The notes under the pieces: model-generated | Told to the model about the DNA's origin: nothing | What the model saw: the letters and a program-made list of their open reading frames with translations, nothing else | The model's database searches: none | Shown: in pieces, positions 24,651 through 48,135 of the stretch | Position numbering within the stretch: position 1 is the first letter of the stretch | Layout of the letters: the number at the start of each line of letters is the position of its first letter | Made by a program: the position numbers and the translations under genes | From: Pyropia yezoensis | Taxonomy: Eukaryota > Rhodophyta > Bangiophyceae > Bangiales > Bangiaceae | Length of the DNA: 64,000 nucleotides | NCBI GenBank assembly: GCA_009829735.1 | Contig: CM020619.1 | Coordinates: 27,616,063-27,680,062, forward strand | Direction: 5' to 3'

Positions 24651-24652
24651 CC

Positions 24653-27905: not shown

Positions 27906-29849
27906 ATGGCGACTCCGGGAGTGGAGACGGACTCTCTCGATGAGCGTATGGAGGACACCTCCTACGGTGCAGCGCCTGCCGGGACTTCCGGCGGGGGCTC
28001 CGCGATCGCTCCGGGGGGTGGGACTCCCGCGTCACCCGGCTTTGGGTTGACGGCAGGATCTCCCCCGGAGGCGGGACAAGTTGTCCCGCGTGAGGCCTTG
28101 GGGCGGTGGTTTTACCCCGCTTGGCCTCTGTATGAGGAGGGGTTGACTGTTCTTCGCTGTGGCCGACTCGGCGCAGCGATGGGTCGGGTATGGGACCGCC
28201 TACGGGAGAAGTATCCCCGTAGGGTCGGGTTCCCTGCCGGCTTCAGGACGGACCAGTTTGCCTTCCTGGACGACGAGGAGGTCGAGGACGTGCAGCGGGC
28301 CAAGGCCATGGTGGACCGCGGGGGAACTATCCCGGGTCCCGGCGACTTGCCGACCTTCACTTGGGACGCGGTGGCAACTCGCCCCCCGTACCTTCACGAG
28401 GCCGATCCGCACACTCATCACTTTGATGTGCGGATGGAGAAGGACTTCCGGCGAGGTCCCTACTTGGTGACCTCGGCTCAACTTGAGTTTCCTCAGCAGT
28501 CTGCTGCCAGTAAGGAGCAATACTACCCGAAGAAGCCCGAGTGGTGGCCTCAAGTTGAGGTCCCCTACGGGTTCCCGGCATTGTTGCCACGGTTGCTTGA
28601 CCACTTCGGCTCCGTCATGTTGACGGCTGGCCCTGATCATCTGGTGTGGGCCATGTTGGCCACCCAGTGGCTCCTCGAGGTCATGTCGACCTGGGTGTCA
28701 TGTGTTCAGCGGCGGGGGATGCTCTGGCATCTCCCCCTCCGGCTCATCCAGGGTTTGGAACAGCTCACCCCTCAGCTAGTTGCTGAGGGGTGCTCGTCAG
28801 GACAACTCACTCTACTTGAGGAGATGCTCCGCCTCCACAAGTTTATCGAGTGGGAGAGCATTGAGCACAAGTTGCGCCGCCCCACTCGGGGGCCCAAGGA
28901 CGATGGCGCACTTCGCCAGTTCGTGTGGGTCGCTCGTGAACTTCACGACGGCCGTGTGGTCCTACGAGAGGGGTTGGGCATCGGGGACTACCCGTATGCC
29001 CCGGGGGTGGATCGTCACACTGCGCCACCCCCGGACAAGCCCATAGTTATGGCTGTGCCCTCATATGATGACCATATGACTCAACCTACTGCGGGGGCCC
29101 CAAGTCGGGGTCGCAGTTACACCCGGGTACCGCCACCTCGGCGTGCCCCTCCGCTTCCTCCTGTTCCTTTCCAGCCTCACGGGAACATCCCGATCAGCGT
29201 GGCCGTGGAGTCATCCACACCGGTGTCTCCCAACTTGGGGGCCACCCTCCTGACGGTATACCCCAAGTTGGTGTTACCGCCCACGCCTCTAACCTCAGAG
29301 ATGATGATCACCACGTTGGTGCGCACCATTTCCTGGTTGGCCGCGTCGACCGCAACCCTCCAAAGTTCCGAGACTCCTCAACTTGAGGAGCGCGTTCGTA
29401 CTGCAGTGGCGACCGCGAGTTGCGAGTCGGTGGCGGAGTTTATGACGGCCGAGTTGGCTCGCATTGGGGCTATTATGCCCCAGCCAACCCCACTTGGGCG
29501 TGGCAAGCGTCGTGCGAGCCGGGCATACTCGCCTCCTCGCCGTCGTCGCCGTCACTCGCGGCGCTCTCCCTCCGTGTCGGAAGACGAGTTGTCTTACTCC
29601 GTCTCGGAGTCCTCTACCCCATCGGAGACGGAGTCTGTCCAGCGTCTGCGTCGCAAACTTGCGCGCAAGACCAGGCAGAAGAGTAGCCACGGTCGGCGCC
29701 ACTTGCGCGACCGTGAGGGGCGCGACGGTTCCGACTTGGAGCCGCCACCCCTTCCAACGAGTGGAGACCGTTATCGGCGTGGGTCTCGCCGCTCGCCTCC
29801 ACGTGAGGGCGAGGGCCGTGGAGTGGGAGAGTCTAGCATGCGTGCCTAG
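27906..29849 (+). CDS. Family B accessory ORF, antisense to gag-pol (copy 1)
   Basis: A 647-residue ORF from ATG 27906 (context GAGCCATGGCG). It lies between the 3' LTR and the end of pol and is transcribed toward pol; its stop is only 111 bp from the pol stop. The N-terminus is acidic and Gly-rich (ETDSLDERMEDTSYG). A central globular part (about 50-330) is rich in Trp, Tyr and Pro, including the core FGSV...VSCVQRRGMLWHLP...LHKFIEWES that is shared with the antisense ORF of element A. A Pro-rich linker follows, then a helical segment (about 455-525), and an Arg/Ser-rich tail resembling an RS domain (SPPRRRRRHSRRSPS). The family is unknown to me. A nucleic-acid-binding accessory role is inferred from the tail only. 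The frame is intact, which argues for selection. Confidence 0.75.
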   Translation: MATPGVETDSLDERMEDTSYGAAPAGTSGGGSAIAPGGGTPASPGFGLTAGSPPEAGQVVPREALGRWFYPAWPLYEEGLTVLRCGRLGAAMGRVWDRLREKYPRRVGFPAGFRTDQFAFLDDEEVEDVQRAKAMVDRGGTIPGPGDLPTFTWDAVATRPPYLHEADPHTHHFDVRMEKDFRRGPYLVTSAQLEFPQQSAASKEQYYPKKPEWWPQVEVPYGFPALLPRLLDHFGSVMLTAGPDHLVWAMLATQWLLEVMSTWVSCVQRRGMLWHLPLRLIQGLEQLTPQLVAEGCSSGQLTLLEEMLRLHKFIEWESIEHKLRRPTRGPKDDGALRQFVWVARELHDGRVVLREGLGIGDYPYAPGVDRHTAPPPDKPIVMAVPSYDDHMTQPTAGAPSRGRSYTRVPPPRRAPPLPPVPFQPHGNIPISVAVESSTPVSPNLGATLLTVYPKLVLPPTPLTSEMMITTLVRTISWLAASTATLQSSETPQLEERVRTAVATASCESVAEFMTAELARIGAIMPQPTPLGRGKRRASRAYSPPRRRRRHSRRSPSVSEDELSYSVSESSTPSETESVQRLRRKLARKTRQKSSHGRRHLRDREGRDGSDLEPPPLPTSGDRYRRGSRRSPPREGEGRGVGESSMRA

Positions 29850-29960
29850 TTGGCAGCTGCCTTTGTTGTGAGAGTGTGAGGGTTAGGGCTGTAGTTTAAA
29901 GCCACTCTGCGTACCACTTCGACTTGAAGCACTCTCTTGGCACTGTTGCTCGGCCTTCCC
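29850..29960. other. Junction of convergent accessory ORF and pol, copy 1
   Basis: Only 111 bases separate the two convergent stop codons, so the 3' ends of the two transcripts must overlap or abut. Confidence 0.7.
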
Positions 29961-32900
29961 TCACGTTGAGGGAGGGCTGTTAGGGTCTATCTCGTTCCGG
30001 GCACAGTACGCCCGGACCTTCTCAGCAGGAAGGTCCTCCACATACTCCCACGTATCATCCTTGGCTTTGTAGCCAAACCAACGCACCCTCAACATGAGGC
30101 GGTCAGTATCCTCATCCCAGCCGTGGTCGATGAACTTGTCGAACACGTACTCCTGCGGGCCCTGTTTGGCTGCAGGCAGCGAGGGCAGGCGCCACGTTTT
30201 CAAAGCACGCGCCCAAGCTGGGTCGCCTGCAGGCGGTGGTGCAACTTTGACCACGTCCTGTCCGTTCACTGTGCGGACCCCATCGTCACTTTCGATGGTG
30301 AAGCGCCGCCCATCAGTACGAAGGACCTGGTACGGCCCCTTCGTCTGGAACACCAACTTACCCCCAGTTGGGGTGTGTGAGTGGACCAATACCCAGTCAC
30401 CCTGCTCGGGGACATGCTTGGCGTTGCGCACCTTCTTGTCAAAGGTACGCTTGTAGCGCTTTTGTGCTTTGTCCATCTCAGCCCTGACTTTAGGGATGAG
30501 GTTTTCAAGCCTAGCAGCGAACTCCGCCTTACTCTCAGTAGGAGTGGGCGTACTGCCACCATCCTCCCTAGTTGGGAGCGGCCGCCGCACGGCAATAGAC
30601 CGCACGCGACGGGGGGTCACAAAAGCGAGGGGTACTTCCCCGGTAGATGAGTGAACCTGCGAATTGTAGGCAGTGGTCAGAATAGAAATGTATTGGTCCC
30701 ACGTCTTCACGTGCTCACTCACATAATGGCGCAGCTGCCTAACAATAGTTTTGTTGAAGCGCTCCACCTGCCCATTAGTTTGTGGGTGGTAGGGGGTGGC
30801 ATAGTTTGCCTTAACCCCCAACATATCCAGCACTCCTTGAAACAGTACAGACGCAAATTGCGGTCCATTGTCCGATAGTGTACTATCCGGAATGCCATAC
30901 GCGGCAACCCAGTGATCTAGGAAGGCTGACACGACCGACATGGCCGTGATCTCTGCCAGTGGGATCGCTCGCGTAAGTTTCGTGAAGCGGTCACAGATGA
31001 CCAGGAGGTACTGGTTGCCCTCCTCGGTCACTGGCAGTGGCCCAAGGATGTCCATCGCCAACGCGGCGAAGGGCTCCTTGGCCGGGAACAATAGCATAGC
31101 CGTAGTAGGCCGCCGTTCCATCAGACGGTTCTGTGCACAACTTGTGCAGGCAGCCACCCAACTGTAGATGTCCACCACCATGGACGGCCAGTAGTACCTG
31201 GTCCTCAGGGTCTGGTACAGTTTACTAGACCCCAGGTGTCCACCCGTGGGAGCGTTATGCTCCCTCTCAAGGATACTGTCCTTGAGGGATGCGGGGACGA
31301 CAAGTTGTTCGGTCCCCTGGAATACCCCCCTCCTCATGAGGAGGCCATCGTCTCCCAGGAAGAACCGCGTCTCCGCCACTGTATCCAGGGTATCCCTCTG
31401 CGACTTGCAGAAGGGATCCTCGGCCTGGGCCTTCACTACTTCGTCCAGGGACAGGGGCAAGTACTTCTTGTTCCCTGGCGCCTCGGGATTCAACGCCTGA
31501 CCCGAGCGCGTGACTACCCCCACGATGGGGATGTCCTCATCGACTGGGGTGGTGTCCAGTCCCTCGGTAGGTACCCGAGAGAGGCCATCGGCAAGGGCAT
31601 GTTGCCTGCCAGGTCGGTACTCAATATCAAAGTTGAAGGGTGCAAGTCGCACCCTCCACCGGTTGAGACGAGTGTTCGTACAGTCCGTCTTGAAGATGAA
31701 CTGCAACGCGCGGTGGTCACAGCGGATGAGGAACTTCTCACCCTCTAGGTAGTGACGAAGTGACGTCACCGCCCATACCACTGCGAGTCCTTCCAACTCG
31801 GTGACTCCGTAGTTCTTCTCGGCCGAGTTTAGCCCCTTGCTGAAGTATCCCACCGGCAAGTACTCCTTGTCCGGCTGTTGCTGAAGCAACACACAACCAA
31901 GTTGGTCGTAGCTAGCGTCCACATCCAGGATGTAGTGGCCTCCCAACCTGGGAATAGCCAGGATAGGGGGCTTCAGCAGAAGGTCCCGAAGAGTCTCAAA
32001 GGATTCCTGCTCCACCCGACTTGGGGGAGGCAGGTTCTTCGGTAGCGTTGAGCTCACTAACTCATTCAACGGCTTCGCCACTTTGGCGAAGCCCTTAGTG
32101 AAACGTCGGTACACGTTACACATCCCGAGGAAGCTCCTCATCTGGGTCTGGGTCCGGGGGTACTGAGCCTTGCGGATGGCCCTCAAGTTTTTCTCGTTGA
32201 CACTGAGACGCCCCGGACGGACAACATGTCCCAAGTACTCCACCTCTTGAGTGAAGAGGTGGCACTTACTCGCCTTCAGTGACACTCCGGCGTCAGCAAG
32301 TAGCTTGAACACCTGGCCAAGATGGCCAATGTGTTCCTCTGGACTTCGGGAGAACACAATGATATCGTCTAGGTACACGAGACAGATCTGCCACCGTACT
32401 CCGGCCAGAATCATGTCCATAGCGCGCTGGAAAGTTGCCGGCGCGTTACACAGGCCAAACGGTAGACGCTTGCACTGGTAGGTACCACAGTGACAGGTAA
32501 AGGTAGTTTTATGCCTGTCCTCCGGGGCAATGGGAATTTGCCAGTACCCCGCGTTACAGTCCAGGGTAGAGAACACGTTTGCCTCCCCCAGAGAGTCCAG
32601 ACAGTCATCCATCCGAGGTAGGGGATAACTATCCTTCACCGTGCTCTCGTTGAGCTTACGGTAGTCGATACAGAACCGGGGGGTCCCATCAACTTTGGGG
32701 ACGATCACCACCGGACTCGCCCACTCGGCGTTGCTGGCCTCGATCACATCGAGGGCCTCCATGCGAGCAACTTGCTCCTTAACGAGGGCCCTTGAACGGG
32801 GTCCCCCCCTATACGGTTGTTGGCGTATAGGGGGCGCACCGGGTTTCAACTCGATCCGGTGTTGGGTAGCTCTCATGAGTCCCAATTGACCATCCCACAA

Positions 32901-33944
32901 CTTGTGATATTGGTCCAAGAGGCGTTCAACTTGAACCCTCAACCTGGGTGGAACACCCTCCATGTTTACCTGGGGCCGAGGAGAGGCGGCCGACTTGGCT
33001 TGATGCTTCTCCTTTCCGGACTTCGGGTCGCCACTTGCGCCCGCGCTGAGGGTGACCGCTACTACCGGTCCCTCGTGTTGGTCGATATAGCCGAACTTGG
33101 CCCCCGACTTGAAGAACTTGGGCGACGAGCTCAGGTTCATCACCTGGATCCTCCACGGGACTCCGGCTTTGGAGTCCATCGTGCCAAGGGCAACATGCAC
33201 TTGGTGCTTGCGAGCAAGACGGGGGTTAGGGTGCACCAACCCGTTCCCCGCATAATCAGTTACAACATCCACGTGCGCCACCGAGTTGGGGGGCAACATG
33301 ACTTTACGGGCTAAACGCAGAGTAGCAGTAAACCCTTCCCTCACAGAACAAACAGGCTTCGACTGTGAAACTGTCACAGGAGCCACAGACTTTCCCTTAC
33401 CAAGGATGGGGATAGTCTCCCCGTTCATCAACTTGACCCAGTACTCAGGGCCACAAATCAAAGGCACTTGTGTTACGACATAAGGGGTACCCAGAAGCAG
33501 GGGTACCGATATATTCTCAACTACACCATAGGTCACGTCGACCTCATGGGTCCCCAACCGAGTTGGTAGGGTCACGGCACCAACGATGGGAAGTACCCCA
33601 CCATTGATATCGATCAGATGGTCAGCTTTAGACTTCCAGCGTTGGAGCCTCATCCCCTTTGGTAATAGCGACTTGCGTATCAAGGAGGCTCCTGACCCGG
33701 TATCAAGTACGATACGGACACAACAGGCGCGGCCGGGGGCTAGTTGCACCCGTCCAGCCACCTGGAAGTTCTCACCCGTCAGCACCGCGATGACCCGACG
33801 TGGGTTTACGTTCTTGGGAAGTCCCACCCGAGGTGGGCGGACTCCCTTAGGTCGCCGCAGTATCCGACACGGTTGGTTCGTCCTCTTGGCCCACTTGGCC
33901 GAGGCTGCCGTTGTGAGCTTCGGACGACCAGCTCCAACGGTCAT
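29961..33944 (-). CDS. pol: Family B Pol polyprotein, copy 1
   Basis: An intact 1327-residue polyprotein from ATG 33944. Protease: LDTGSGASLI with Asp 81. Reverse transcriptase about 380-560 with FCIDYRKLNE, LPFGLCNAPATFQ and YLDD at 523-526. RNase H about 670-790 (DVDAS, TELEGLAVVWA, DHRALQF, HALADGLSR). Integrase with the H-H-C-C zinc site (His 895, His 902, Cys 932, Cys 935) and catalytic Asp 964, Asp 1024 and Glu 1060, a DD35E spacing. The C-terminal chromodomain (about 1266-1316, RVRWFGYKAKDDTWEYVEDL) marks it as a chromovirus-type Ty3/gypsy element. Its ATG overlaps the gag stop as ATGA. All catalytic residues are present, so this copy appears competent. Confidence 0.96.
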   Translation of the reverse strand: MTVGAGRPKLTTAASAKWAKRTNQPCRILRRPKGVRPPRVGLPKNVNPRRVIAVLTGENFQVAGRVQLAPGRACCVRIVLDTGSGASLIRKSLLPKGMRLQRWKSKADHLIDINGGVLPIVGAVTLPTRLGTHEVDVTYGVVENISVPLLLGTPYVVTQVPLICGPEYWVKLMNGETIPILGKGKSVAPVTVSQSKPVCSVREGFTATLRLARKVMLPPNSVAHVDVVTDYAGNGLVHPNPRLARKHQVHVALGTMDSKAGVPWRIQVMNLSSSPKFFKSGAKFGYIDQHEGPVVAVTLSAGASGDPKSGKEKHQAKSAASPRPQVNMEGVPPRLRVQVERLLDQYHKLWDGQLGLMRATQHRIELKPGAPPIRQQPYRGGPRSRALVKEQVARMEALDVIEASNAEWASPVVIVPKVDGTPRFCIDYRKLNESTVKDSYPLPRMDDCLDSLGEANVFSTLDCNAGYWQIPIAPEDRHKTTFTCHCGTYQCKRLPFGLCNAPATFQRAMDMILAGVRWQICLVYLDDIIVFSRSPEEHIGHLGQVFKLLADAGVSLKASKCHLFTQEVEYLGHVVRPGRLSVNEKNLRAIRKAQYPRTQTQMRSFLGMCNVYRRFTKGFAKVAKPLNELVSSTLPKNLPPPSRVEQESFETLRDLLLKPPILAIPRLGGHYILDVDASYDQLGCVLLQQQPDKEYLPVGYFSKGLNSAEKNYGVTELEGLAVVWAVTSLRHYLEGEKFLIRCDHRALQFIFKTDCTNTRLNRWRVRLAPFNFDIEYRPGRQHALADGLSRVPTEGLDTTPVDEDIPIVGVVTRSGQALNPEAPGNKKYLPLSLDEVVKAQAEDPFCKSQRDTLDTVAETRFFLGDDGLLMRRGVFQGTEQLVVPASLKDSILEREHNAPTGGHLGSSKLYQTLRTRYYWPSMVVDIYSWVAACTSCAQNRLMERRPTTAMLLFPAKEPFAALAMDILGPLPVTEEGNQYLLVICDRFTKLTRAIPLAEITAMSVVSAFLDHWVAAYGIPDSTLSDNGPQFASVLFQGVLDMLGVKANYATPYHPQTNGQVERFNKTIVRQLRHYVSEHVKTWDQYISILTTAYNSQVHSSTGEVPLAFVTPRRVRSIAVRRPLPTREDGGSTPTPTESKAEFAARLENLIPKVRAEMDKAQKRYKRTFDKKVRNAKHVPEQGDWVLVHSHTPTGGKLVFQTKGPYQVLRTDGRRFTIESDDGVRTVNGQDVVKVAPPPAGDPAWARALKTWRLPSLPAAKQGPQEYVFDKFIDHGWDEDTDRLMLRVRWFGYKAKDDTWEYVEDLPAEKVRAYCARNEIDPNSPPST

Positions 33945-35886
33945 TCGTTTCCCGCCGACTTGGCGTCCGAATCTGAGGGCGAAGGGGACGACGACGAGTC
34001 CGAGGACGACGTGTCCGCCCCCTCCGTCGAGGGTGTGGCGACCGCCACCACTGGTCGAGACCCACCCTCGCGGCGTGAACGCACTTCGTTCGTAGCCGAC
34101 TTCTTACTCGCATTCCTAACAAGCTGTTGGATGCGTTTACTCAACTTGGGGCAATCATATGCCCAGTGACCATCGGAGTTGCAGTTCCAACACCGATGAT
34201 CAGTTCCCGGAGGGGTCTTCCCAACTGGGGAAGACGACGAGGTACCTTGGGAAGTTCCCACGGCAGCTACCACCCTCTCCTTGCGGATTCGGCGTGCCTC
34301 TCGCAACTCTCTGGCCTGGCGCGCCTCTTCCCGTTCCTTGGCCAACTCGGCCTGACGCTCCTGGCGTTGTTCTTCCCGCAACTTGCGGTAGGCCTCGCCT
34401 CTGCGGTAGGCGAACCTAGCCAACTCGGCCAGGGTCGCCCGGGCAGTGTTATGCTCCCGGGTCTCCATCCGGACTGACCAGTGGAGTCCTTCCACAAACC
34501 GACTCTTCACCACAGCTTGTGGATGAAGAAACCCACAAAGATTGTTGAGCTTACGGACTCGCTCCGCAAAGGACAACTCGTCCTCCGCCTCTTCCTGATG
34601 GGCTTGCGTAAACTCCTCGACTTGAGAAGCCAACGCCGCTTCATCAACCATGGCCCTCAACAACCAGTTGACGAGCTCCAAATAGGACGTCACCTCCCCA
34701 GCGCCTCCACTTGAGGAGCTGGGCATGACGGACATAAGTTCTGTCCGCAGGTCTCCCTTCGTAAACTCCTGTAGCATGTAAAAAGCCATGCCTTCACTTA
34801 TGGCATTGTCGTCACAGGCTTTTGTGAAACGACGTAGGAACTCAAAGACACGGAGGGGGGGAGTTCCATCCCACTCCGCTTTGTGCCCAAAAGAGTGAAG
34901 TGCATTCTTCTTGGCACGGCCCATGGCTCGGGCCTGGTCAGGACCATACGCCACCGACTTGTTGTGGAGGGCGTAGGTCTCACAGTCAAAGATCCTCTGG
35001 TAGACCGGGTTGGCTACCTGGATCTTGGGCGGCACCTCACGTTGAGGGAACAGCCGCTGTGCCACTGGGGTAAGTTCACCCACAGTGCCTGTAGTCCGGC
35101 GCGGCGCGCTTGGTGTAGCCGCCGGTGTTGTCGGGGGAACTCCCCCATGAAGGGCGTACGCCCCACCGAGTATGGTGTGGCTCCCTCGTTGGGAGTCACA
35201 GGTGTCGCCCCCAGTTCGGGGCGACCAGAGATAGGCGTAAGGGGGGATTCCCCCTGCGCCTGCGGGCTCGAAGGCCCCAATCCGGTCTGGACATTAAGGC
35301 CATCTGGCAAACTCGCCACAATCTGATTCAGAATAGTATTCGTCATCGTGACCACCAGGTCCGGCAAAGTCTGCCGCAACACAGTGGTCGCCTCCCGACG
35401 GACAGTTTCCGCGAGGAGTGGATTGACGACTCCAGTTGAGTCTCGGTCCACCTCCGGGAGTCCACCTGAGGGGTAACCACGTTCCTCAGGGGTCTCAACC
35501 GGGGGCATGGGCGCGAGCCCATCGCCGACCAACGGAGGTCCGCCGTCCTCCGAAAGCCTAGTTGGCGATGGCTCCATGCCAAAGTTGGCTCCAACCCGAG
35601 TGGAACTCGCGGGGACAGTCCTCACCCTTGGGACGTTCCCGTTGAGTATACCACGCGGTGGCCAGACTTCGGCCCACCCACGTCAGAAGTGTCACCCGAG
35701 TGAACTCCCGACTGAGTCGGGGTGGCCTGTTGCCCGCCCGCACTTCCAGTCCTGCTGGCTTGAGGGACCTCTAGTCCCTCTGCGACCCCAGGTAAACCCA
35801 CCTGTGTCTCACCAGTATTCAAAGGCACTGAAGTACGTGCGTCACCCGTGTACTCCCCGGACGACGGGGGGTCCGAGCTAGCCATG
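33941..35886 (-). CDS. gag: Family B Gag, copy 1, broken by two single-base shifts
   Basis: Homologous throughout to the intact copy at 42544-44490. Relative to it, one G is missing in a G run near 35135 and one C in a C run near 35628, splitting the frame into three parts. Both differences are homopolymer-length changes within 1.1 kb of the assembly gap, so sequencing error is more likely than mutation. The part from 35083 to 33941 keeps the capsid region and the zinc knuckle (CWNCNSDGHWAYDC). The start is ATG 35886. Confidence 0.85.
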
Positions 35887-35984
35887 TTGGCTAACGATCC
35901 GTATGACACGGTCCAAGTCCACCGTTCCTCTGAGACAGAGGGCCCCTACACCCGGGTGCACCCGGAGGTAAAGTTTACCTCTGT

Positions 35985-36001
35985 CCCCTGCTGCTCCACC
36001 A
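35985..36001 (-). promoter_or_regulatory. Primer-binding site next to LTR 2
   Basis: On the minus strand TGGTGGAGCAGCAGGGG begins two bases after the LTR end. Identical to the site beside LTR 3. Confidence 0.85.
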
Positions 36002-36003
36002 AA

Positions 36004-36166
36004 TGTGGCAAAAACCACTCGCACACACAGTACCCAAGTTGGGGCGGTGTGCGAGGGCTGCCTCCCGTGTCGGGGGAACCGGAAGAAGTGCAAGTCGCAC
36101 ACACTCTATCCCTGTTGTGGGGCAATCCCCCCACGGACAAACAAGAAGATGGTGTGTGGTCCAACA
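36004..36166 (-). repeat. Family B LTR 2, first 163 bp before the gap
   Basis: Identical to LTR 3 over the visible part and differs from LTR 1 by one base (A for T). The rest of this LTR is inside the N run. Confidence 0.9.
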
Positions 36167-36666
36167 NNNNNNNNNNNNNNNNNNNNNNNNNNNNNNNNNN
36201 NNNNNNNNNNNNNNNNNNNNNNNNNNNNNNNNNNNNNNNNNNNNNNNNNNNNNNNNNNNNNNNNNNNNNNNNNNNNNNNNNNNNNNNNNNNNNNNNNNNN
36301 NNNNNNNNNNNNNNNNNNNNNNNNNNNNNNNNNNNNNNNNNNNNNNNNNNNNNNNNNNNNNNNNNNNNNNNNNNNNNNNNNNNNNNNNNNNNNNNNNNNN
36401 NNNNNNNNNNNNNNNNNNNNNNNNNNNNNNNNNNNNNNNNNNNNNNNNNNNNNNNNNNNNNNNNNNNNNNNNNNNNNNNNNNNNNNNNNNNNNNNNNNNN
36501 NNNNNNNNNNNNNNNNNNNNNNNNNNNNNNNNNNNNNNNNNNNNNNNNNNNNNNNNNNNNNNNNNNNNNNNNNNNNNNNNNNNNNNNNNNNNNNNNNNNN
36601 NNNNNNNNNNNNNNNNNNNNNNNNNNNNNNNNNNNNNNNNNNNNNNNNNNNNNNNNNNNNNNNNNN
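36167..36666. other. Assembly gap, 500 N
   Basis: Exactly 500 N, a placeholder length. By alignment to copy 1 the flanks correspond to 27259 and 28060, so the missing piece would be about 800 bp: the rest of LTR 2, the leader, and the start of the accessory ORF. Confidence 0.95.
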
Positions 36667-38453: not shown

Positions 38454-41400
38454 TTGGCAGCTGCCTTTGTTGTGAGAGTGTGAGGGTTAGGGCTGTAGTT
38501 TAAAGCCACTCTGCGTACCACTTCGACTTGAAGCACTCTCTTGGCACTGTTGCTCGGCCTTCCCTCACGTTGAGGAGGGCTGTTAGGGTCTATCTCGTTC
38601 CGGGCACAGTACGCCCGGACCTTCTCAGCAGGAAGGTCCTCCACATACTCCCACGTATCATCCTTGGCTTTGTAGCCAAACCAACGCACCCTCAACATGA
38701 GGCGGTCAGTATCCTCATCCCAGCCGTGGTCGATGAACTTGTCGAACACGTACTCCTGCGGGCCCTGTTTGGCTGCAGGCAGCGAGGGCAGGCGCCACGT
38801 TTTCAAAGCACGCGCCCAAGCTGGGTCGCCTGCAGGCGGTGGTGCAACTTTGACCACGTCCTGTCCGTTCACTGTGCGGACCCCATCGTCACTTTCGATG
38901 GTGAAGCGCCGCCCATCAGTACGAAGGACCTGGTACGGGCCCCTTCGTCTGGAACACCAACTTACCCCCAGTTGGGTGTGTGAGTGGACCAATACCCAGT
39001 CACCCTGCTCGGGGACATGCTTGGCGTTGCGCACCTTCTTGTCAAAGGTACGCTTGTAGCGCTTTTGTGCTTTGTCCATCTCAGCCCTGACTTTAGGGAT
39101 GAGGTTTTCAAGCCTAGCAGCGAACTCCGCCTTACTCTCAGTAGGAGTGGGCGTACTGCCACCATCCTCCCTAGTTGGGAGCGGCCGCCGCACGGCAATA
39201 GACCGCACGCGACGGGGGGTCACAAAAGCGAGGGGTACTTCCCCGGTAGATGAGTGAACCTGCGAATTGTAGGCAGTGGTCAGAATAGAAATGTATTGGT
39301 CCCACGTCTTCACGTGCTCACTCACATAATGGCGCAGCTGCCTAACAATAGTTTTGTTGAAGCGCTCCACCTGCCCATTAGTTTGTGGGTGGTAGGGGGT
39401 GGCATAGTTTGCCTTAACCCCCAACATATCCAGCACTCCTTGAAACAGTACAGACGCAAATTGCGGTCCATTGTCCGATAGTGTACTATCCGGAATGCCA
39501 TACGCGGCAACCCAGTGATCTAGGAAGGCTGACACGACCGACATGGCCGTGATCTCTGCCAGTGGGATCGCTCGCGTAAGTTTCGTGAAGCGGTCACAGA
39601 TGACCAGGAGGTACTGGTTGCCCTCCTCGGTCACTGGCAGTGGCCCAAGGATGTCCATCGCCAACGCGGCGAAGGGCTCCTTGGCCGGGAACAATAGCAT
39701 AGCCGTAGTAGGCCGCCGTTCCATCAGACGGTTCTGTGCACAACTTGTGCAGGCAGCCACCCAACTGTAGATGTCCACCACCATGGACGGCCAGTAGTAC
39801 CTGGTCCTCAGGGTCTGGTACAGTTTACTAGACCCCAGGTGTCCACCCGTGGGAGCGTTATGCTCCCTCTCAAGGATACTGTCCTTGAGGGATGCGGGGA
39901 CGACAAGTTGTTCGGTCCCCTGGAATACCCCCCTCCTCATGAGGAGGCCATCGTCTCCCAGGAAGAACCGCGTCTCCGCCACTGTATCCAGGGTATCCCT
40001 CTGCGACTTGCAGAAGGGATCCTCGGCCTGGGCCTTCACTACTTCGTCCAGGGACAGGGGCAAGTACTTCTTGTTCCCTGGCGCCTCGGGATTCAACGCC
40101 TGACCCGAGCGCGTGACTACCCCCACGATGGGGATGTCCTCATCGACTGGGGTGGTGTCCAGTCCCTCGGTAGGTACCCGAGAGAGGCCATCGGCAAGGG
40201 CATGTTGCCTGCCAGGTCGGTACTCAATATCAAAGTTGAAGGGTGCAAGTCGCACCCTCCACCGGTTGAGACGAGTGTTCGTACAGTCCGTCTTGAAGAT
40301 GAACTGCAACGCGCGGTGGTCACAGCGGATGAGGAACTTCTCACCCTCTAGGTAGTGACGAAGTGACGTCACCGCCCATACCACTGCGAGTCCTTCCAAC
40401 TCGGTGACTCCGTAGTTCTTCTCGGCCGAGTTTAGCCCCTTGCTGAAGTATCCCACCGGCAAGTACTCCTTGTCCGGCTGTTGCTGAAGCAACACACAAC
40501 CAAGTTGGTCGTAGCTAGCGTCCACATCCAGGATGTAGTGGCCTCCCAACCTGGGAATAGCCAGGATAGGGGGCTTCAGCAGAAGGTCCCGAAGAGTCTC
40601 AAAGGATTCCTGCTCCACCCGACTTGGGGGAGGCAGGTTCTTCGGTAGCGTTGAGCTCACTAACTCATTCAACGGCTTCGCCACTTTGGCGAAGCCCTTA
40701 GTGAAACGTCGGTACACGTTACACATCCCGAGGAAGCTCCTCATCTGGGTCTGGGTCCGGGGGTACTGAGCCTTGCGGATGGCCCTCAAGTTTTTCTCGT
40801 TGACACTGAGACGCCCCGGACGGACAACATGTCCCAAGTACTCCACCTCTTGAGTGAAGAGGTGGCACTTACTCGCCTTCAGTGACACTCCGGCGTCAGC
40901 AAGTAGCTTGAACACCTGGCCAAGATGGCCAATGTGTTCCTCTGGACTTCGGGAGAACACAATGATATCGTCTAGGTACACGAGACAGATCTGCCACCGT
41001 ACTCCGGCCAGAATCATGTCCATAGCGCGCTGGAAAGTTGCCGGCGCGTTACACAGGCCAAACGGTAGACGCTTGCACTGGTAGGTACCACAGTGACAGG
41101 TAAAGGTAGTTTTATGCCTGTCCTCCGGGGCAATGGGAATTTGCCAGTACCCCGCGTTACAGTCCAGGGTAGAGAACACGTTTGCCTCCCCCAGAGAGTC
41201 CAGACAGTCATCCATCCGAGGTAGGGGATAACTATCCTTCACCGTGCTCTCGTTGAGCTTACGGTAGTCGATACAGAACCGGGGGGTCCCATCAACTTTG
41301 GGGACGATCACCACCGGACTCGCCCACTCGGCGTTGCTGGCCTCGATCACATCGAGGGCCTCCATGCGAGCAACTTGCTCCTTAACGAGGGCCCTTGAAC

Positions 41401-42547
41401 GGGGTCCCCCCCTATACGGTTGTTGGCGTATAGGGGGCGCACCGGGTTTCAACTCGATCCGGTGTTGGGTAGCTCTCATGAGTCCCAATTGACCATCCCA
41501 CAACTTGTGATATTGGTCCAAGAGGCGTTCAACTTGAACCCTCAACCTGGGTGGAACACCCTCCATGTTTACCTGGGGCCGAGGAGAGGCGGCCGACTTG
41601 GCTTGATGCTTCTCCTTTCCGGACTTCGGGTCGCCACTTGCGCCCGCGCTGAGGGTGACCGCTACTACCGGTCCCTCGTGTTGGTCGATATAGCCGAACT
41701 TGGCCCCCGACTTGAAGAACTTGGGCGACGAGCTCAGGTTCATCACCTGGATCCTCCACGGGACTCCGGCTTTGGAGTCCATCGTGCCAAGGGCAACATG
41801 CACTTGGTGCTTGCGAGCAAGACGGGGGTTAGGGTGCACCAACCCGTTCCCCGCATAATCAGTTACAACATCCACGTGCGCCACCGAGTTGGGGGGCAAC
41901 ATGACTTTACGGGCTAAACGCAGAGTAGCAGTAAACCCTTCCCTCACAGAACAAACAGGCTTCGACTGTGAAACTGTCACAGGAGCCACAGACTTTCCCT
42001 TACCAAGGATGGGGATAGTCTCCCCGTTCATCAACTTGACCCAGTACTCAGGGCCACAAATCAAAGGCACTTGTGTTACGACATAAGGGGTACCCAGAAG
42101 CAGGGGTACCGATATATTCTCAACTACACCATAGGTCACGTCGACCTCATGGGTCCCCAACCGAGTTGGTAGGGTCACGGCACCAACGATGGGAAGTACC
42201 CCACCATTGATATCGATCAGATGGTCAGCTTTAGACTTCCAGCGTTGGAGCCTCATCCCCTTTGGTAATAGCGACTTGCGTATCAAGGAGGCTCCTGACC
42301 CGGTATCAAGTACGATACGGACACAACAGGCGCGGCCGGGGGCTAGTTGCACCCGTCCAGCCACCTGGAAGTTCTCACCCGTCAGCACCGCGATGACCCG
42401 ACGTGGGTTTACGTTCTTGGGAAGTCCCACCCGAGGTGGGCGGACTCCCTTAGGTCGCCGCAGTATCCGACACGGTTGGTTCGTCCTCTTGGCCCACTTG
42501 GCCGAGGCTGCCGTTGTGAGCTTCGGACGACCAGCTCCAACGGTCAT
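38450..42547 (-). CDS. pol: Family B Pol polyprotein, copy 2
   Basis: Same polyprotein as 29961-33944 with identical protease, RT, RNase H and integrase. Two single-base differences near 38938 and 38976 shift and restore the frame, replacing about 14 residues just before the chromodomain. A missing G near 38573 removes the normal stop so the frame reads on to 38450, making 1365 residues and overlapping the end of the antisense ORF. Both changes are in homopolymers close to the gap and are probably errors; the natural stop would be near 38564. Confidence 0.93.
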   Translation of the reverse strand: MTVGAGRPKLTTAASAKWAKRTNQPCRILRRPKGVRPPRVGLPKNVNPRRVIAVLTGENFQVAGRVQLAPGRACCVRIVLDTGSGASLIRKSLLPKGMRLQRWKSKADHLIDINGGVLPIVGAVTLPTRLGTHEVDVTYGVVENISVPLLLGTPYVVTQVPLICGPEYWVKLMNGETIPILGKGKSVAPVTVSQSKPVCSVREGFTATLRLARKVMLPPNSVAHVDVVTDYAGNGLVHPNPRLARKHQVHVALGTMDSKAGVPWRIQVMNLSSSPKFFKSGAKFGYIDQHEGPVVAVTLSAGASGDPKSGKEKHQAKSAASPRPQVNMEGVPPRLRVQVERLLDQYHKLWDGQLGLMRATQHRIELKPGAPPIRQQPYRGGPRSRALVKEQVARMEALDVIEASNAEWASPVVIVPKVDGTPRFCIDYRKLNESTVKDSYPLPRMDDCLDSLGEANVFSTLDCNAGYWQIPIAPEDRHKTTFTCHCGTYQCKRLPFGLCNAPATFQRAMDMILAGVRWQICLVYLDDIIVFSRSPEEHIGHLGQVFKLLADAGVSLKASKCHLFTQEVEYLGHVVRPGRLSVNEKNLRAIRKAQYPRTQTQMRSFLGMCNVYRRFTKGFAKVAKPLNELVSSTLPKNLPPPSRVEQESFETLRDLLLKPPILAIPRLGGHYILDVDASYDQLGCVLLQQQPDKEYLPVGYFSKGLNSAEKNYGVTELEGLAVVWAVTSLRHYLEGEKFLIRCDHRALQFIFKTDCTNTRLNRWRVRLAPFNFDIEYRPGRQHALADGLSRVPTEGLDTTPVDEDIPIVGVVTRSGQALNPEAPGNKKYLPLSLDEVVKAQAEDPFCKSQRDTLDTVAETRFFLGDDGLLMRRGVFQGTEQLVVPASLKDSILEREHNAPTGGHLGSSKLYQTLRTRYYWPSMVVDIYSWVAACTSCAQNRLMERRPTTAMLLFPAKEPFAALAMDILGPLPVTEEGNQYLLVICDRFTKLTRAIPLAEITAMSVVSAFLDHWVAAYGIPDSTLSDNGPQFASVLFQGVLDMLGVKANYATPYHPQTNGQVERFNKTIVRQLRHYVSEHVKTWDQYISILTTAYNSQVHSSTGEVPLAFVTPRRVRSIAVRRPLPTREDGGSTPTPTESKAEFAARLENLIPKVRAEMDKAQKRYKRTFDKKVRNAKHVPEQGDWVLVHSHTQLGVSWCSRRRGPYQVLRTDGRRFTIESDDGVRTVNGQDVVKVAPPPAGDPAWARALKTWRLPSLPAAKQGPQEYVFDKFIDHGWDEDTDRLMLRVRWFGYKAKDDTWEYVEDLPAEKVRAYCARNEIDPNSPPQREGRPSNSAKRVLQVEVVRRVALNYSPNPHTLTTKAAAN

Positions 42548-44490
42548 TCGTTTCCCGCCGACTTGGCGTCCGAATCTGAGGGCGAAGGGGACGACGACGA
42601 GTCCGAGGACGACGTGTCCGCCCCCTCCGTCGAGGGTGTGGCGACCGCCACCACTGGTCGAGACCCACCCTCGCGGCGTGAACGCACTTCGTTCGTAGCC
42701 GACTTCTTACTCGCATTCCTAACAAGCTGTTGGATGCGTTTACTCAACTTGGGGCAATCATATGCCCAGTGACCATCGGAGTTGCAGTTCCAACACCGAT
42801 GATCAGTTCCCGGAGGGGTCTTCCCAACTGGGGAAGACGACGAGGTACCTTGGGAAGTTCCCACGGCAGCTACCACCCTCTCCTTGCGGATTCGGCGTGC
42901 CTCTCGCAACTCTCTGGCCTGGCGCGCCTCTTCCCGTTCCTTGGCCAACTCGGCCTGACGCTCCTGGCGTTGTTCTTCCCGCAACTTGCGGTAGGCCTCG
43001 CCTCTGCGGTAGGCGAACCTAGCCAACTCGGCCAGGGTCGCCCGGGCAGTGTTATGCTCCCGGGTCTCCATCCGGACTGACCAGTGGAGTCCTTCCACAA
43101 ACCGACTCTTCACCACAGCTTGTGGATGAAGAAACCCACAAAGATTGTTGAGCTTACGGACTCGCTCCGCAAAGGACAACTCGTCCTCCGCCTCTTCCTG
43201 ATGGGCTTGCGTAAACTCCTCGACTTGAGAAGCCAACGCCGCTTCATCAACCATGGCCCTCAACAACCAGTTGACGAGCTCCAAATAGGACGTCACCTCC
43301 CCAGCGCCTCCACTTGAGGAGCTGGGCATGACGGACATAAGTTCTGTCCGCAGGTCTCCCTTCGTAAACTCCTGTAGCATGTAAAAAGCCATGCCTTCAC
43401 TTATGGCATTGTCGTCACAGGCTTTTGTGAAACGACGTAGGAACTCAAAGACACGGAGGGGGGGAGTTCCATCCCACTCCGCTTTGTGCCCAAAAGAGTG
43501 AAGTGCATTCTTCTTGGCACGGCCCATGGCTCGGGCCTGGTCAGGACCATACGCCACCGACTTGTTGTGGAGGGCGTAGGTCTCACAGTCAAAGATCCTC
43601 TGGTAGACCGGGTTGGCTACCTGGATCTTGGGCGGCACCTCACGTTGAGGGAACAGCCGCTGTGCCACTGGGGTAAGTTCACCCACAGTGCCTGTAGTCC
43701 GGCGCGGCGCGCTTGGTGTAGCCGCCGGTGTTGTCGGGGGGAACTCCCCCATGAAGGGCGTACGCCCCACCGAGTATGGTGTGGCTCCCTCGTTGGGAGT
43801 CACAGGTGTCGCCCCCAGTTCGGGGCGACCAGAGATAGGCGTAAGGGGGGATTCCCCCTGCGCCTGCGGGCTCGAAGGCCCCAATCCGGTCTGGACATTA
43901 AGGCCATCTGGCAAACTCGCCACAATCTGATTCAGAATAGTATTCGTCATCGTGACCACCAGGTCCGGCAAAGTCTGCCGCAACACAGTGGTCGCCTCCC
44001 GACGGACAGTTTCCGCGAGGAGTGGATTGACGACTCCAGTTGAGTCTCGGTCCACCTCCGGGAGTCCACCTGAGGGGTAACCACGTTCCTCAGGGGTCTC
44101 AACCGGGGGCATGGGCGCGAGCCCATCGCCGACCAACGGAGGTCCGCCGTCCTCCGAAAGCCTAGTTGGCGATGGCTCCATGCCAAAGTTGGCTCCAACC
44201 CGAGTGGAACTCGCGGGGACAGTCCTCACCCCTTGGGACGTTCCCGTTGAGTATACCACGCGGTGGCCAGACTTCGGCCCACCCACGTCAGAAGTGTCAC
44301 CCGAGTGAACTCCCGACTGAGTCGGGGTGGCCTGTTGCCCGCCCGCACTTCCAGTCCTGCTGGCTTGAGGGACCTCTAGTCCCTCTGCGACCCCAGGTAA
44401 ACCCACCTGTGTCTCACCAGTATTCAAAGGCACTGAAGTACGTGCGTCACCCGTGTACTCCCCGGACGACGGGGGGTCCGAGCTAGCCAT
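42544..44490 (-). CDS. gag: Family B Gag, copy 2 (intact)
   Basis: A 648-residue Gag from ATG 44490. The N-terminal third is Pro/Gly/Thr-rich and probably disordered. A capsid-like helical region follows (FEFLRRFTKACDDNAISEG, ELVNWLLRAMVDEAA, FAERVRKLNNLCGF), then a charged Arg/Glu helix. One CCHC zinc knuckle is at 566-579 (CWNCNSDGHWAYDC), and the tail is a Ser/Asp-rich acidic segment ending SAGNE. The TGA stop is embedded in ATGA, the A-T-G of which starts pol in the -1 frame. It forms the virus-like particle shell and binds element RNA. Confidence 0.93.
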   Translation of the reverse strand: MASSDPPSSGEYTGDARTSVPLNTGETQVGLPGVAEGLEVPQASRTGSAGGQQATPTQSGVHSGDTSDVGGPKSGHRVVYSTGTSQGVRTVPASSTRVGANFGMEPSPTRLSEDGGPPLVGDGLAPMPPVETPEERGYPSGGLPEVDRDSTGVVNPLLAETVRREATTVLRQTLPDLVVTMTNTILNQIVASLPDGLNVQTGLGPSSPQAQGESPLTPISGRPELGATPVTPNEGATPYSVGRTPFMGEFPPTTPAATPSAPRRTTGTVGELTPVAQRLFPQREVPPKIQVANPVYQRIFDCETYALHNKSVAYGPDQARAMGRAKKNALHSFGHKAEWDGTPPLRVFEFLRRFTKACDDNAISEGMAFYMLQEFTKGDLRTELMSVMPSSSSGGAGEVTSYLELVNWLLRAMVDEAALASQVEEFTQAHQEEAEDELSFAERVRKLNNLCGFLHPQAVVKSRFVEGLHWSVRMETREHNTARATLAELARFAYRRGEAYRKLREEQRQERQAELAKEREEARQARELREARRIRKERVVAAVGTSQGTSSSSPVGKTPPGTDHRCWNCNSDGHWAYDCPKLSKRIQQLVRNASKKSATNEVRSRREGGSRPVVAVATPSTEGADTSSSDSSSSPSPSDSDAKSAGNE

Positions 44491-44590
44491 GTTGGCTAAC
44501 GATCCGTATGACACGGTCCAAGTCCACCGTTCCTCTGAGACAGAGGGCCCCCTACACCCGGGTGCACCCGGAGGTAAAGTTTACCTCTGT

Positions 44591-44607
44591 CCCCTGCTGC
44601 TCCACCA
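44591..44607 (-). promoter_or_regulatory. Primer-binding site of family B
   Basis: Minus strand TGGTGGAGCAGCAGGGG, two bases downstream of the 5' LTR. It would pair with a tRNA whose 3' end is CCTGCTGCTCCACCA. The same 15 bases occur at this position in elements A and C. Confidence 0.88.
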
Positions 44608-44609
44608 AA

Positions 44610-45077
44610 TGTGGCAAAAACCACTCGCACACACAGTACCCAAGTTGGGGCGGTGTGCGAGGGCTGCCTCCCGTGTCGGGGGAACCGGAAGAAGTGCAAG
44701 TCGCACACACTCTATCCCTGTTGTGGGGCAATCCCCCCACGGACAAACAAGAAGATGGTGTGTGGTCCAACAGTTTCTTGGTCGGGACGGGGACGCAGGG
44801 CCAAGCCCCGCTGTCCCTCCCCTTATCCCCCCAGGGTCCACTCAGAATCTCGCCACTCAGAATCTCCCACCCCAGCACCTGCCCACCGGGCCACACGAAA
44901 ATTCAAGACGATAAATGCAGAAAACCCTCAAATCCAAGTTGGATTTACTACTAAGCTAACTATCCCGAACTTAGGGAATATGGACCCAAATGCAGGGGGA
45001 GGAACGGATCAGGCTAGTGGCCTGCCGCCCCTTGCATGGCACGTGTTGCCCCCTACCTGGGGGTCAATACTGCCACA
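44610..45077 (-). repeat. Family B LTR 3 (5' LTR)
   Basis: 468 bp with the same termini as LTR 1. It drives gag-pol leftward. Flanked on its outer side by CCCCC, matching the outer flank of LTR 1. Confidence 0.93.
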
Positions 45078-45200
45078 CCCCCTTGTTTACCCCTTGTGGG
45101 GGGGGCGTGGCCCCGATCCAGGTGCCTGGGTGGAGCGACCTCGTAGCTCGGCTGGCGCGGGTCGTCCCGCGCAGCCGTATCGCTCGTGCTGAGCTGTGTG

Positions 45201-45224
45201 GTTATAAGCGCGGGTGCCCGCGCT
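45201..45224 (+). promoter_or_regulatory. TATA-like box and perfect hairpin ahead of element A accessory ORF
   Basis: GTTATAAG (45201-45208) runs into AGCGCGGG-TG-CCCGCGCT (45207-45224), a perfect 8-bp stem. It is about 105 bases upstream of ATG 45314 and is a candidate core promoter for the antisense ORF. Function is inferred. Confidence 0.35.
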
Positions 45225-45313
45225 TCCCTGGCTCGTCCGCGAGCGTTCCTTGTACCGGGTCGAGCCGGCCGCGGCTTTTTGGCACGGGGCGCCCCTGCTA
45301 CCCCGGCTCCACC

Positions 45314-47686
45314 ATGTCGGACCCCCAGGTACCCGGGGGCGAGGACGACCTCCTGCTTGACGAGGAGGAGGAGGTGATGCAGGACGACGTTCCCGTCTCC
45401 GCCACCGCCGCCGAGTGCTTCTTGGCGAGCTCGTAGGAGGACGAAGGCGACCGGGTAACCGTCCGTGTAGCCCCGGAAGGCGCGCCGGGCGGGTTGTCGT
45501 CCGTGTGCAGCGGCACGACGGCTCCGTCGGGTGGCGGTCAACCGCGTGTAGCGGCTGCCCCTACTCCTACTCCTCCGGCGACCCAGATGGCTCCTGTCGC
45601 CGGTGCCGGCGCGGCTCTACCTCAAGAAGGCGCAGCCGGTGTGCCGGACCGTCATGGCGGCACCCCGGCCGGGACGGCGGGTCAAGACGGTGCGGGCGCC
45701 CGCCCGGTTGGTGGTGTATTCGTGGAGGCGGGTAACGGGTCTACCCCCTCCGCCCCCGTGGTGCCCATGTCGGGCCCGGGTGGCGGCGATGCTCTGCCCG
45801 CGGTGCCGCGGGCGACAGGTGGTCAAGACGTGTCTTCCCCGATGGCGGTGGACTCCGGGAGCTACTCCGGGCGGGCGCCCGCCCTTCTTCTTCCTCCTCG
45901 GCCCCGTGCGCCTACGGCACCGGCCCATCTGCCGGTGGGGCTCCCCCCGGCGCCCCCGATTCTTCCTGGACCCGCCCGGGTTGCCCCGTTGGGTGGCGGC
46001 GTCGCCTCGGCGGCGGGTCAACCTGCCGTGTCGATGTCCGACTTGGTGGCTCGGGTTCGAGGCCTAACTGTGCAGGAGTCCATGGACTCCGCTGGGCGGA
46101 TGCGGGTGGACTTCCACCAGCCGCGTCACCGTGGAGGGTCCTCCCGGCGCGTCAATTTGGACCCGAGTTGGGAGCGGGAGTTGGTGCGGCTGGTCAACCA
46201 GCCGAATGCGGTCCGGGTGGAACATCATTGGGTTCTGAGTCAGCCGGACGACCGCCATGCGCAGCTCTGGCGCACCCGGGTGGGGCGGGGTGAAGTCTTC
46301 CTCGACCCCGCCTTCGGGGTATGCGACTTGGTTGCCCCCGCGTTGCAGCGGGAGGTTGACTACCCGGCTAGTGCTTGGGGGGTTGCGTCGGCGGTGGCGC
46401 CTGTGGCGTTTGGAAAGACGGTGAGGGATACCCGCCGGTATCCCGGGTTTGAGTACTTCCCGGGGGTATCCCCGTACCTGACATTGACGGCTCCGTACCC
46501 GCCCATGGCGGGGTTGAAGTCGGCGTCGAGCTGGCGACGCAACCCTGGTGTCATGGCGGATGCGTTCCGCACCGATATAACGTGTTCGTTGCAGACCAGT
46601 AACGGTCGTGCGCCGGTGTACACTCCCGTGCGCCCGCCTCTGTGGCAGGAGGGGTGGGAACCCGCCCCTGCTTTCCGGTTTGACACCGGCTCCTGTCTCC
46701 GATACTTCGGGAGTGTGTTGGCCTCCCGGCCGGTCCACCCGTTGCAGGGGACCGTCACCCTTGAGGTTACCCTCGGGCAGGCTTCCTGCTTTGTGCTGTC
46801 CGTCCGTCGGCAGGGGCGCCTGTTTCATCTTCCGACGGGTGTCTGTCGGCATATCGGGCAGCTGGGCGTGGACATGATAGCTGCCAAGACTGGGTTGGCC
46901 CGGGAGCTCGAGGCCCTGCTGGCCGTTCACGATGCCGTGAACTGGGCTGGGGTGTTGACCCTTCCCCCGTACCGGGATCCGCAGGCTGGGGCTGCCCCCT
47001 TGCCTCGTCACTCGTTGCGCATCCGGCGTACTCAGCCGGGTGAGCCCAATTGCCGTGGGTGGGCGTCCACCGAGAGTTTTACTGACCTGGGTATTCCCAT
47101 GGTTATCCATGACCCTCTGCAGGTCCTCGCCCCGTGGTTCGGTAACCCGATACCGGTGACGGTTGGCTGTCATCCCCGAGAGTGGGACTCTGCGGGTGGG
47201 GAGCGTGAGGTGTCCCGTCCTCGGGCGGAGCCCCGCCGGGTTTACGGTGGGGCCCCTTCAGTGGGGTCCTACCGGGCCTCGTATCAGGCGCCACCGGCTC
47301 CGGTGGTAGCCGTGTCGGCTCCTGTGGCTCCTCTGGCTGCGCCAGTGTCACCTTCCGCCCCTGTCATGCGTGACGGGGGTCCCCGTCTATGGTATGAGGG
47401 CGTTGACGCCCTAATTGCCCGCGAGATGCGGGAGGGTCTCTCCGCTAGCTGGGGGGATATCCCCCCAGGTGCTGCGCTGGTTGGGTCCGCGCGTTGCTTC
47501 GGTGGCGTGCTGGACCGCCTCCAGACAGCTCTGGAGGACGTGGAGGCTGGTCGCTGCACCCTCGTCCAGCTATGCGCCGAGGTAACTCGGGCGATTGACC
47601 GTCGTGAGATTGCCGACCGGTGGAGCATGGAGGTGTACGCGTTTACGCGTGAGTGGCCTCCCTCGGGCAGTGGGTCAACCCACTGA
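45314..47686 (+). CDS. Element A accessory ORF, antisense to gag-pol, with one internal stop
   Basis: ATG 45314 (context CCACCATGTCG) opens a frame of 790 codons interrupted once, by TAG at 45434-45436 (codon 41). The same frame continues as clear coding sequence on both sides (acidic DDLLLDEEEEV before, EDEGDRVTVRV after). A long Ala/Pro/Gly linker follows, then from about 46030 a globular region with many Trp and Pro. The core LRYFGSV...FVLSVRRQGRLFHLP...HDAVNWAG (46697-46959) matches the family B antisense protein in order and spacing. The C-terminal quarter has a helical GVDALIAREMREGLSASWG segment. Unlike B it lacks an RS-like tail. Function unknown. Position, strand and shared core make it the orthologous accessory gene. 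Confidence 0.72.
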
Positions 47687-48135
47687 GGAGTGCTATTGTT
47701 GTGAGGAAGAGGGACCCGGTGACCCTTATGGTGGCCGGGTAGTAGTGAGTATAAACTCATCCCCCGCTGGGGCGTTTGCATGATACCAATGCCTGCCTGT
47801 GGGGAGTACCCCGTCTGACTTAGCCGTGGCCTGCCTCGGTTCTTTCTCGCCCCCCCCGACCCATTCTGGTTGGTTAATACTCATGAAGGTCAACCTTCCT
47901 TGGTCCGTCACTTGCCCCATGGATGAAGGTTTACCTTGGTGTAAGCCTCAGGTTACTTTGAAATTACTGGAGTTAGTCATCTCCTTCAAGTAAACTCGTA
48001 GAAGTCAGTAGCTTACTTAGTTCCCTAAGTCCGCTCCAACTTAGTGAACCTAAGTCTTGTCGAATCCATGTGACATCCTACTTAGTAGGTATGAGCCTCA
48101 CCCCCCAACAGCCGAAGTCGGTGTCGGTTGGGCTG
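47687..48135. other. Convergent region between element A accessory ORF and pol
   Basis: 449 bases with no ORF of note. It contains several TAAACCT/AGGTTTAC-type words and a stem (CCCAAC...GTTGGG) just outside the pol stop, possibly 3'-end signals for either transcript. Confidence 0.45.

Follow-up and report, generated by a model that had tools for sequence, protein, structure and literature searches.

Retrotransposons flanked by long terminal repeats (LTRs) are described as the predominant repeat class of the Pyropia yezoensis genome (PMC7423979). Why would such an element hold a long open reading frame (ORF) on the strand opposite its own gag-pol, and does that frame encode a protein of use to the element? 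The question is raised by a 64-kb stretch (the window; C2:27616063-27680062 in the 107.5 Mb Pyropia (Neopyropia) yezoensis assembly), in which two elements, A and B, each carry a large antisense ORF next to pol, and a third element, D, runs past the window end. Taken as one statement, we regard it as highly probable that a protein-coding gene opposite gag-pol, convergent with pol and adjoining the 3' LTR, is present in at least three Ty3-type families (A, B and D), that the amino-acid sequence of this gene is under purifying selection in all three, and that the three genes share a common descent. A preliminary description of the stretch had proposed such a gene in two families, and its guess of a red-algal source is correct; the finding is now a stronger one, an antisense gene kept by selection in three or more Ty3 families. 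The antisense features of A and B are as follows.

27906..29849, + strand: element B antisense accessory gene, ATG at 27906, stop at 29849, 647 amino acids (aa), uninterrupted
28371..28862, + strand: B segment homologous to A and D, about residues 156-319 (A from residue 161, D up to residue 300)
45314..47686, + strand: element A antisense accessory gene, ATG at 45314, premature stop at codon 41, open thereafter to 47686
46472..46954, + strand: A segment homologous to B (BLASTP)

The B gene lies, as first described, with the 3' LTR (27097-27564) on one side and the pol stop (29961) on the other, and its product consists of a short acidic N-terminus, a conserved core, a Pro-rich linker, a C-terminal part and an Arg/Ser-rich basic tail (about residues 534-647). 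For A, the frame, place and strand given earlier hold, but the single open ORF does not, owing to the stop at codon 41; a relative, P0002, reads through from an N-terminus similar to that of A. Sequence comparison shows that the two antisense proteins are homologous. BLASTP aligns them at E=2e-10 with 42 of 164 residues identical (26% over the alignable part), and their local alignment score of 126 exceeds the maximum of 93 reached in 1000 shuffles, as does that of the core alone (120 vs 70); a score no better than shuffled sequence, named earlier as grounds for doubt, was therefore not obtained. The core of about 90 residues noted by eye is thus borne out, with 27 of 90 columns identical rather than the roughly 20 first estimated. 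When six frames of the A region were compared with six frames of the B region, only the +1/+1 pair matched (E=6e-9), the best other pair reaching E=1.0.

The third family is represented in the window by an incomplete copy, so that part of the evidence comes from stretches fetched elsewhere in the genome (numbered with L).

59089..59660, + strand: element D 5' LTR, target-site duplication (TSD) GTGGC; the element extends beyond the window end
61717..64000, + strand: part of element D pol
L055:3028-4014, - strand, just outside the window: D antisense gene, an open frame shortened in this copy

The 3' LTR of this copy lies at L055:4018-4589, the two D LTRs being 99.1% identical, and its pol has stops or frameshifts; in aligned pieces, D pol is 47-51% identical to that of B and 39-51% to that of A. 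The core is missing from the window copy, because only positions 1285-2160 of the 2160 bases of another D copy (L057) match it. Other D copies have long antisense frames, L057 being open through all 720 codons fetched. The antisense proteins of B and D match at E=7.2e-7 to 1.1e-5 (three copies), and their core score beats 1000 of 1000 shuffles. Compared directly, A and D give a score that 444 of 1000 shuffles equal, with a best BLASTP match of E=0.022 that falls outside the core, and the D antisense frames escaped an hmmsearch with three family profiles (E<=1); a profile comparison, itself weak, pointed to this core as well (E=0.0065 at 6% probability and E=0.00042 at 34%). The relation of A to D therefore rests on B, and common descent of all three genes is indicated because the core is common to A and B and to B and D.

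In our test for selection, the observed mutation types were placed at random and the synonymous count was compared with its expectation; the rearranged B copy L026 and D alignment blocks below 85% identity were excluded, and because the copies are related to one another the simulation counts are not exact probabilities. The antisense amino-acid sequence is under purifying selection in A, B and D. Synonymous changes number 35 in B against an expected 17.8 (a count reached in 0 of 10000 simulations), 204 in A against 153.6 (0 of 10000) and 161 in D against 112.8 (0 of 2000), and the excess extends to the core of B (11 vs 5.4; 43 of 10000) as well as to the core (102 vs 68.9; 1 of 10000) and C-terminus (47 vs 33.2; 26 of 10000) of A. 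The identical test applied to pol gives 61 against 32.6 expected in B and 48 against 30.2 in A. Relative to the mutation-spectrum null, the nonsynonymous/synonymous ratio is 0.29 in B, 0.65 in A (core 0.54) and 0.57 in D. A simple ratio of nonsynonymous to synonymous polymorphism (pN/pS) for B is 0.22 in the antisense gene (22 nonsynonymous and 35 synonymous changes) and 0.27 in pol, while the pairwise ratio of nonsynonymous to synonymous rates (dN/dS) for A is 0.46 in the antisense gene, 0.38 in its core and 0.28 at the pol end. The preliminary description had held that a maintained function was implied, and had named a dN/dS near 1 as a sign to the contrary; the ratio for the gene as a whole was lower in all three families.

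These measurements, together with the comparisons above, bear on the possibility that the frames are open by chance in GC-rich DNA, or reflect coding on the opposite strand. The window is indeed full of long ORFs (118 mechanically called frames of at least 150 aa), and the opposite-strand frame -2 also has a synonymous excess, with ratios of 0.35 in B (pN/pS), 0.59 in A (dN/dS) and 0.63 in D. Yet this excess is expected, because the third codon positions of frame -2 coincide with those of the antisense frame, and by the same measures the antisense frame is the more constrained in each family (0.22 in B, 0.46 in A and 0.57 in D); frame -2 also has 24 stops inside the gene in B, 19 in A and 9 in D (L057). 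The stop-to-stop lengths of the A and B antisense frames were each reached in 0 of 2000 simulations of the same dinucleotide make-up. With homology confined to the +1 frame, we consider chance or shadow refuted, its remaining probability being negligible. The same data speak to a reading in which the antisense RNA itself functions, by forming double-stranded RNA or by interfering with the sense transcript, while the open frame has no role of its own. Overlap with the full-length sense RNA is to be expected of such a transcript, a point raised for other antisense ORFs in PMC7264820, but the codon-level tests disfavour this reading: the amino-acid sequence is constrained in three families, the long frames are kept open and the homology is frame-specific, which leaves it very improbable.

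Copies elsewhere in the genome tell whether the layout is a property of the families. The copy and match lists hold best matches only, so that all copy counts are lower bounds (window copies included) and the lists favour intact copies. On these terms, the A antisense gene has at least 61 matches at 86-100% identity (35 of 61 stop-free in the matched part, window copy included), the B core at least 112 at 99-100% (112 of 112 stop-free) and the D antisense gene at least 63 at 88-100% (43 of 63 stop-free). Among 39 further B copies, 34 retain the full frame of 647 codons; of the other five, one has a stop, three are apparently frameshifted and one is rearranged. Intact further copies, whose lack had been named beforehand as grounds for doubt, are thus present in all three families among the best matches. 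In 14 of 14 fetched flanks, pol lies downstream on the opposite strand (eight A copies, L040-L047, and six relatives, L049-L054), although in L050 the pol match spans just 54 aa; for a further A copy, L048, the stretch covers the LTR side, which is uninformative on orientation.

In the protein databases (about 8000 candidates scored per search), B has one relative (P0001, 97%) and A six (P0002-P0007), and the profile search proposed earlier returned 12 proteins, five of them already found, for a total of 14. Six of the 14 are Pyropia vietnamensis hypothetical proteins with MMPV_ names (P0004-P0009). In four of these records (P0005, P0006, P0007 and P0009) internal portions of the aligned region are absent, as they would be had the annotation placed introns within the frame. 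Annotation of the relatives as ordinary proteins in a related alga affects gene counts. Contigs of IMG/VR and GTDB gave 29 and 38 pattern hits respectively, with no confirmed relative.

Such records would also suit a gene of the host, or of another mobile element, that was captured once and is carried as a passenger. Against this, all 14 tested copies or relatives lie beside pol in the same orientation, and the gene is no passenger, because it occurs in three families whose pol is only 39-51% identical (aligned pieces) and is under selection; we judge this account improbable, though an ancient capture with later use by the element may have occurred. The interval between pol and the 3' LTR is also the position of env, which invites an envelope-like or other structural role in the particle. 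Envelope genes are expected on the sense strand with transmembrane segments; the antisense genes run opposite to gag-pol, and no transmembrane-like stretch is present in A or B, the highest 19-residue hydropathy being 1.2 in B and 1.4 in A, the latter in a Pro/Ala stretch. A structural role is accordingly a distinctly improbable one.

The antisense protein, as far as these comparisons reach, evolves faster than pol. The Pol proteins of A and B are 45% identical over 952 aa, compared with 26% for the antisense proteins, in keeping with the earlier remark that the latter are the more diverged. Likewise, the relative P0013 is 51% identical to the A antisense protein over 48% of the query, whereas the pol of L049, an element that carries a 99% match to P0013, shows 83% identity to that of A. 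P0013 itself has at least 126 matches in P. yezoensis, with identities falling from 99% to 50%.

The elements that carry the genes have the following parts.

26379..26741, - strand: element A 3' LTR, TSD ACGCC
48136..50988, - strand: element A pol, with reverse transcriptase (RT), RNase H and integrase; chromodomain match very weak
51022..52227, - strand: element A protease-containing ORF
54713..55074, - strand: element A 5' LTR, primer-binding site as in B
27097..27564, - strand: element B 3' LTR, TG...CA, TSD CCCCC
29961..33944, - strand: element B pol (stop at 29961), with RT, RNase H and integrase; weak chromodomain match
33941..35083, - strand: part of element B gag, with a CCHC zinc knuckle
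44610..45077, - strand: element B 5' LTR, primer-binding site TGGTGGAGCAGCAGG next to it, inward
36167..36666, no strand: scaffold gap of 500 N, with one and the same 8.1-kb sequence on both sides (a missed contig overlap)

A and B, with gag-pol on the - strand in both, are Ty3-type LTR elements, and from the LTR positions and TSDs B is nested within A; in L048, an A copy elsewhere, the LTR end and the stretches before and after the insertion are contiguous, without B. The assignment to Ty3 follows from LTRs bounded by TG...CA and 5-bp TSDs in A (ACGCC), B (CCCCC) and D (GTGGC), and from the order of Pfam matches (RT, RNase H, integrase) in A and B, D being placed by the similarity of its pol to theirs. 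Because the primer-binding site TGGTGGAGCAGCAGG beside the 5' LTR is common to A, B and D, all three probably use the same tRNA primer; no tRNA gene was found within the window. The chromodomain of the earlier label is a weak one: matches to it (PF00385; E=7.8e-5 in B, 0.0029 in the relative L049 and 0.072 in A) are all under the Pfam cut-off of 25.1 bits.

Neither the nesting nor the missed contig overlap had been part of the preliminary description. The flanks of the gap (28060-36166 and 36667-44772) are 99.8% identical, with 2 mismatches and 15 gap openings (BLASTN), and both abut it. Aligned with MAFFT, they differ by single-base length changes, save one two-base change. A separate second B element was considered and rejected: the repeated sequence is very probably an assembly duplicate, because the differences are nearly all single-base length changes and both ends fall at the gap. 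The duplicated contig end holds a 656-aa version of B gag, open at 42544-44514, and the intact antisense frame of the first B copy is also that of 34 of the 39 others. Missed overlaps at such joins may inflate gene and repeat counts in the assembly. Elsewhere in the window, a 38-bp unit forms a head-to-tail array at 1-870, most copies being 85-94% alike, and other short-period repeats occupy 24561-25073 and 2298-3589.

What might the protein do? We suggest that a fast-evolving accessory gene would be expressed from its own transcript, with a start within or close to the 3' LTR, and that its product would be a soluble nuclear protein acting on the element's own DNA or RNA. Our preferred version is a regulator of element expression that would maintain active copies against host silencing, the core binding either element DNA or a host chromatin partner. 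As a putative nuclear regulator of the element, possibly anti-silencing, the protein is assigned tentatively, at somewhat less than even probability. The hints that we counted towards a nuclear or nucleic-acid role are the Arg/Ser-rich basic tail of B, the lack of a membrane-like segment, and an array of dyad repeats in A-type elements:

48015..48056, + strand: 24-bp repeat, two units, with the dyad ACTTAG(4-5)CTAAGT, in the spacer from the antisense stop to the pol stop of A

A-type relatives have four units (L052 and L054) or nine (L053, at L053:319-534), and ACTTAG half-sites occur in eight of eight A copies (L040-L047, four to seven per fetched stretch). There are none in stretches L049, L051, L055 and L057 and one in L050, and B has single half-sites in its LTRs and no array. 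Among words of 6, 7 and 8 bases in nine noncoding segments, only ACTTAG in the A spacer beat all 200 simulations; the 7- and 8-base words of that spacer were equalled in 81 and 187 of 200, and those of the B LTR (at 8 bases) and of the D LTR (at 6 bases) each in 17 of 200. The 24-bp dyad array is a possible DNA target of the antisense protein. Another word, TTGTTGTGAG, which lies downstream in A and B, was dropped, as it was not found in the searched stretches of six relatives.

Several observations weigh against this reading. The basic tail is found only in B of A and B, and the array only in A-type elements, and therefore neither hint is family-wide. The N-terminal parts show no constraint (55 synonymous changes vs 53.0 expected in A, 10 vs 9.0 in D), and stops interrupt 26 of the 61 matches to A and 20 of the 63 to D, as is expected of dead copies. 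Pfam holds no family for the A or B antisense proteins (E<=0.1), and a scan of 16 members gave three weak single-member matches, the best at E=0.014; a PDB sequence search yielded no credible relative (best E=0.15); and although the proposed structure prediction was carried out, both AlphaFold models are uninformative (mean predicted local distance difference test, pLDDT, of 32 and 35).

The basic tail of B could also be that of a protein that moves or packages element RNA, by export in the manner of Rex/Rev or CERV or as a nucleocapsid-like partner of Gag, and not one that acts on chromatin or transcription. There is precedent in the Cer1 retrotransposon, whose CERV is reported to be required for export of genomic RNA (PMC10309623, likened here by description only). 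The tail is absent from A, and the Pfam scans matched no RNA-binding family; we hold RNA transport to be rather unlikely. A bolder form of the regulator reading, unlikely as it stands, would make the protein an old anti-silencing or transcription-factor family of red-algal Ty3 elements, independent of VANC and of the Retand and Grande proteins, that diverges quickly along with element-specific DNA targets (in the A type, the 24-bp dyad array) and aids high copy number in Pyropia.

VANC belongs to VANDAL, a DNA transposon of Arabidopsis, whereas the carriers here are red-algal Ty3 elements. It is a transposon-encoded, diverging anti-silencing protein with noncoding tandem repeats as targets (PMC10398659, compared by description), which the A-type array might resemble. 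In deltaretroviruses, HBZ and APH-2 are nuclear regulators encoded by antisense genes, according to PMC11963269, and the likeness is one of layout only.

Closer in layout are LTR retrotransposons of other hosts. An antisense ORF placed after pol and before the 3' LTR (the class named aORF-3R) has been described in Grande, RIRE2, Retand, PvRetro13 and Boty (PMC7264820), and in the families reported here the ORF is likewise on the opposite strand, in the interval from pol to the 3' LTR, and in most copies among the best matches. The layout is already known, and novelty is therefore limited to the protein family and the host lineage; the earlier remark that no described family with this protein is known appears to stand, and the layout has been described before (PMC7264820, PMC11963269). 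Our literature search, judged from titles and abstract openings and with subscription papers and preprints largely outside it, gave no account of antisense ORFs in red-algal retrotransposons, and none of the papers in it appears to describe the protein family. In PMC7264820 and PMC11963269, described antisense accessory genes are mainly from flowering plants, with function not established. A distinct selected family in red algae suggests either repeated origin of the layout or an age far greater than has been supposed, and the many near-identical young copies offer a system for testing antisense gene function.

The nuclear regulator reading leans by analogy on Grande and Retand, of which the Retand protein TRP28 is predicted to be DNA-binding and the Grande antisense protein is reported as nuclear (PMC7264820, PMC11963269). 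Grande gene23, like the ORFs of RIRE2, PvRetro13 and Boty, shares strand and position with the genes here and belongs to other hosts (compared by description); for Grande, separate antisense transcription and a nuclear protein have been reported (PMC7264820). Searches for PF04195, the Pfam family given for TRP28 in PMC7264820, were negative for all 16 members scanned (E<=1) and likewise for A and B (E<=0.1), the Retand proteins themselves being compared by description. Retand is nevertheless alike in general plan: a Ty3-type element, most copies of which have a long ORF antisense to gag-pol in the pol-3' LTR interval (with TRP28 in 97% of clusters), for which regulation has been suggested; about half of the elements also have tandem repeats there, comparable to the A-type array (PMC11963269). 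It differs in being a non-chromovirus confined, in the same source, to flowering plants, whereas A, B and D are red-algal elements, A and B with a weak chromodomain-like end.

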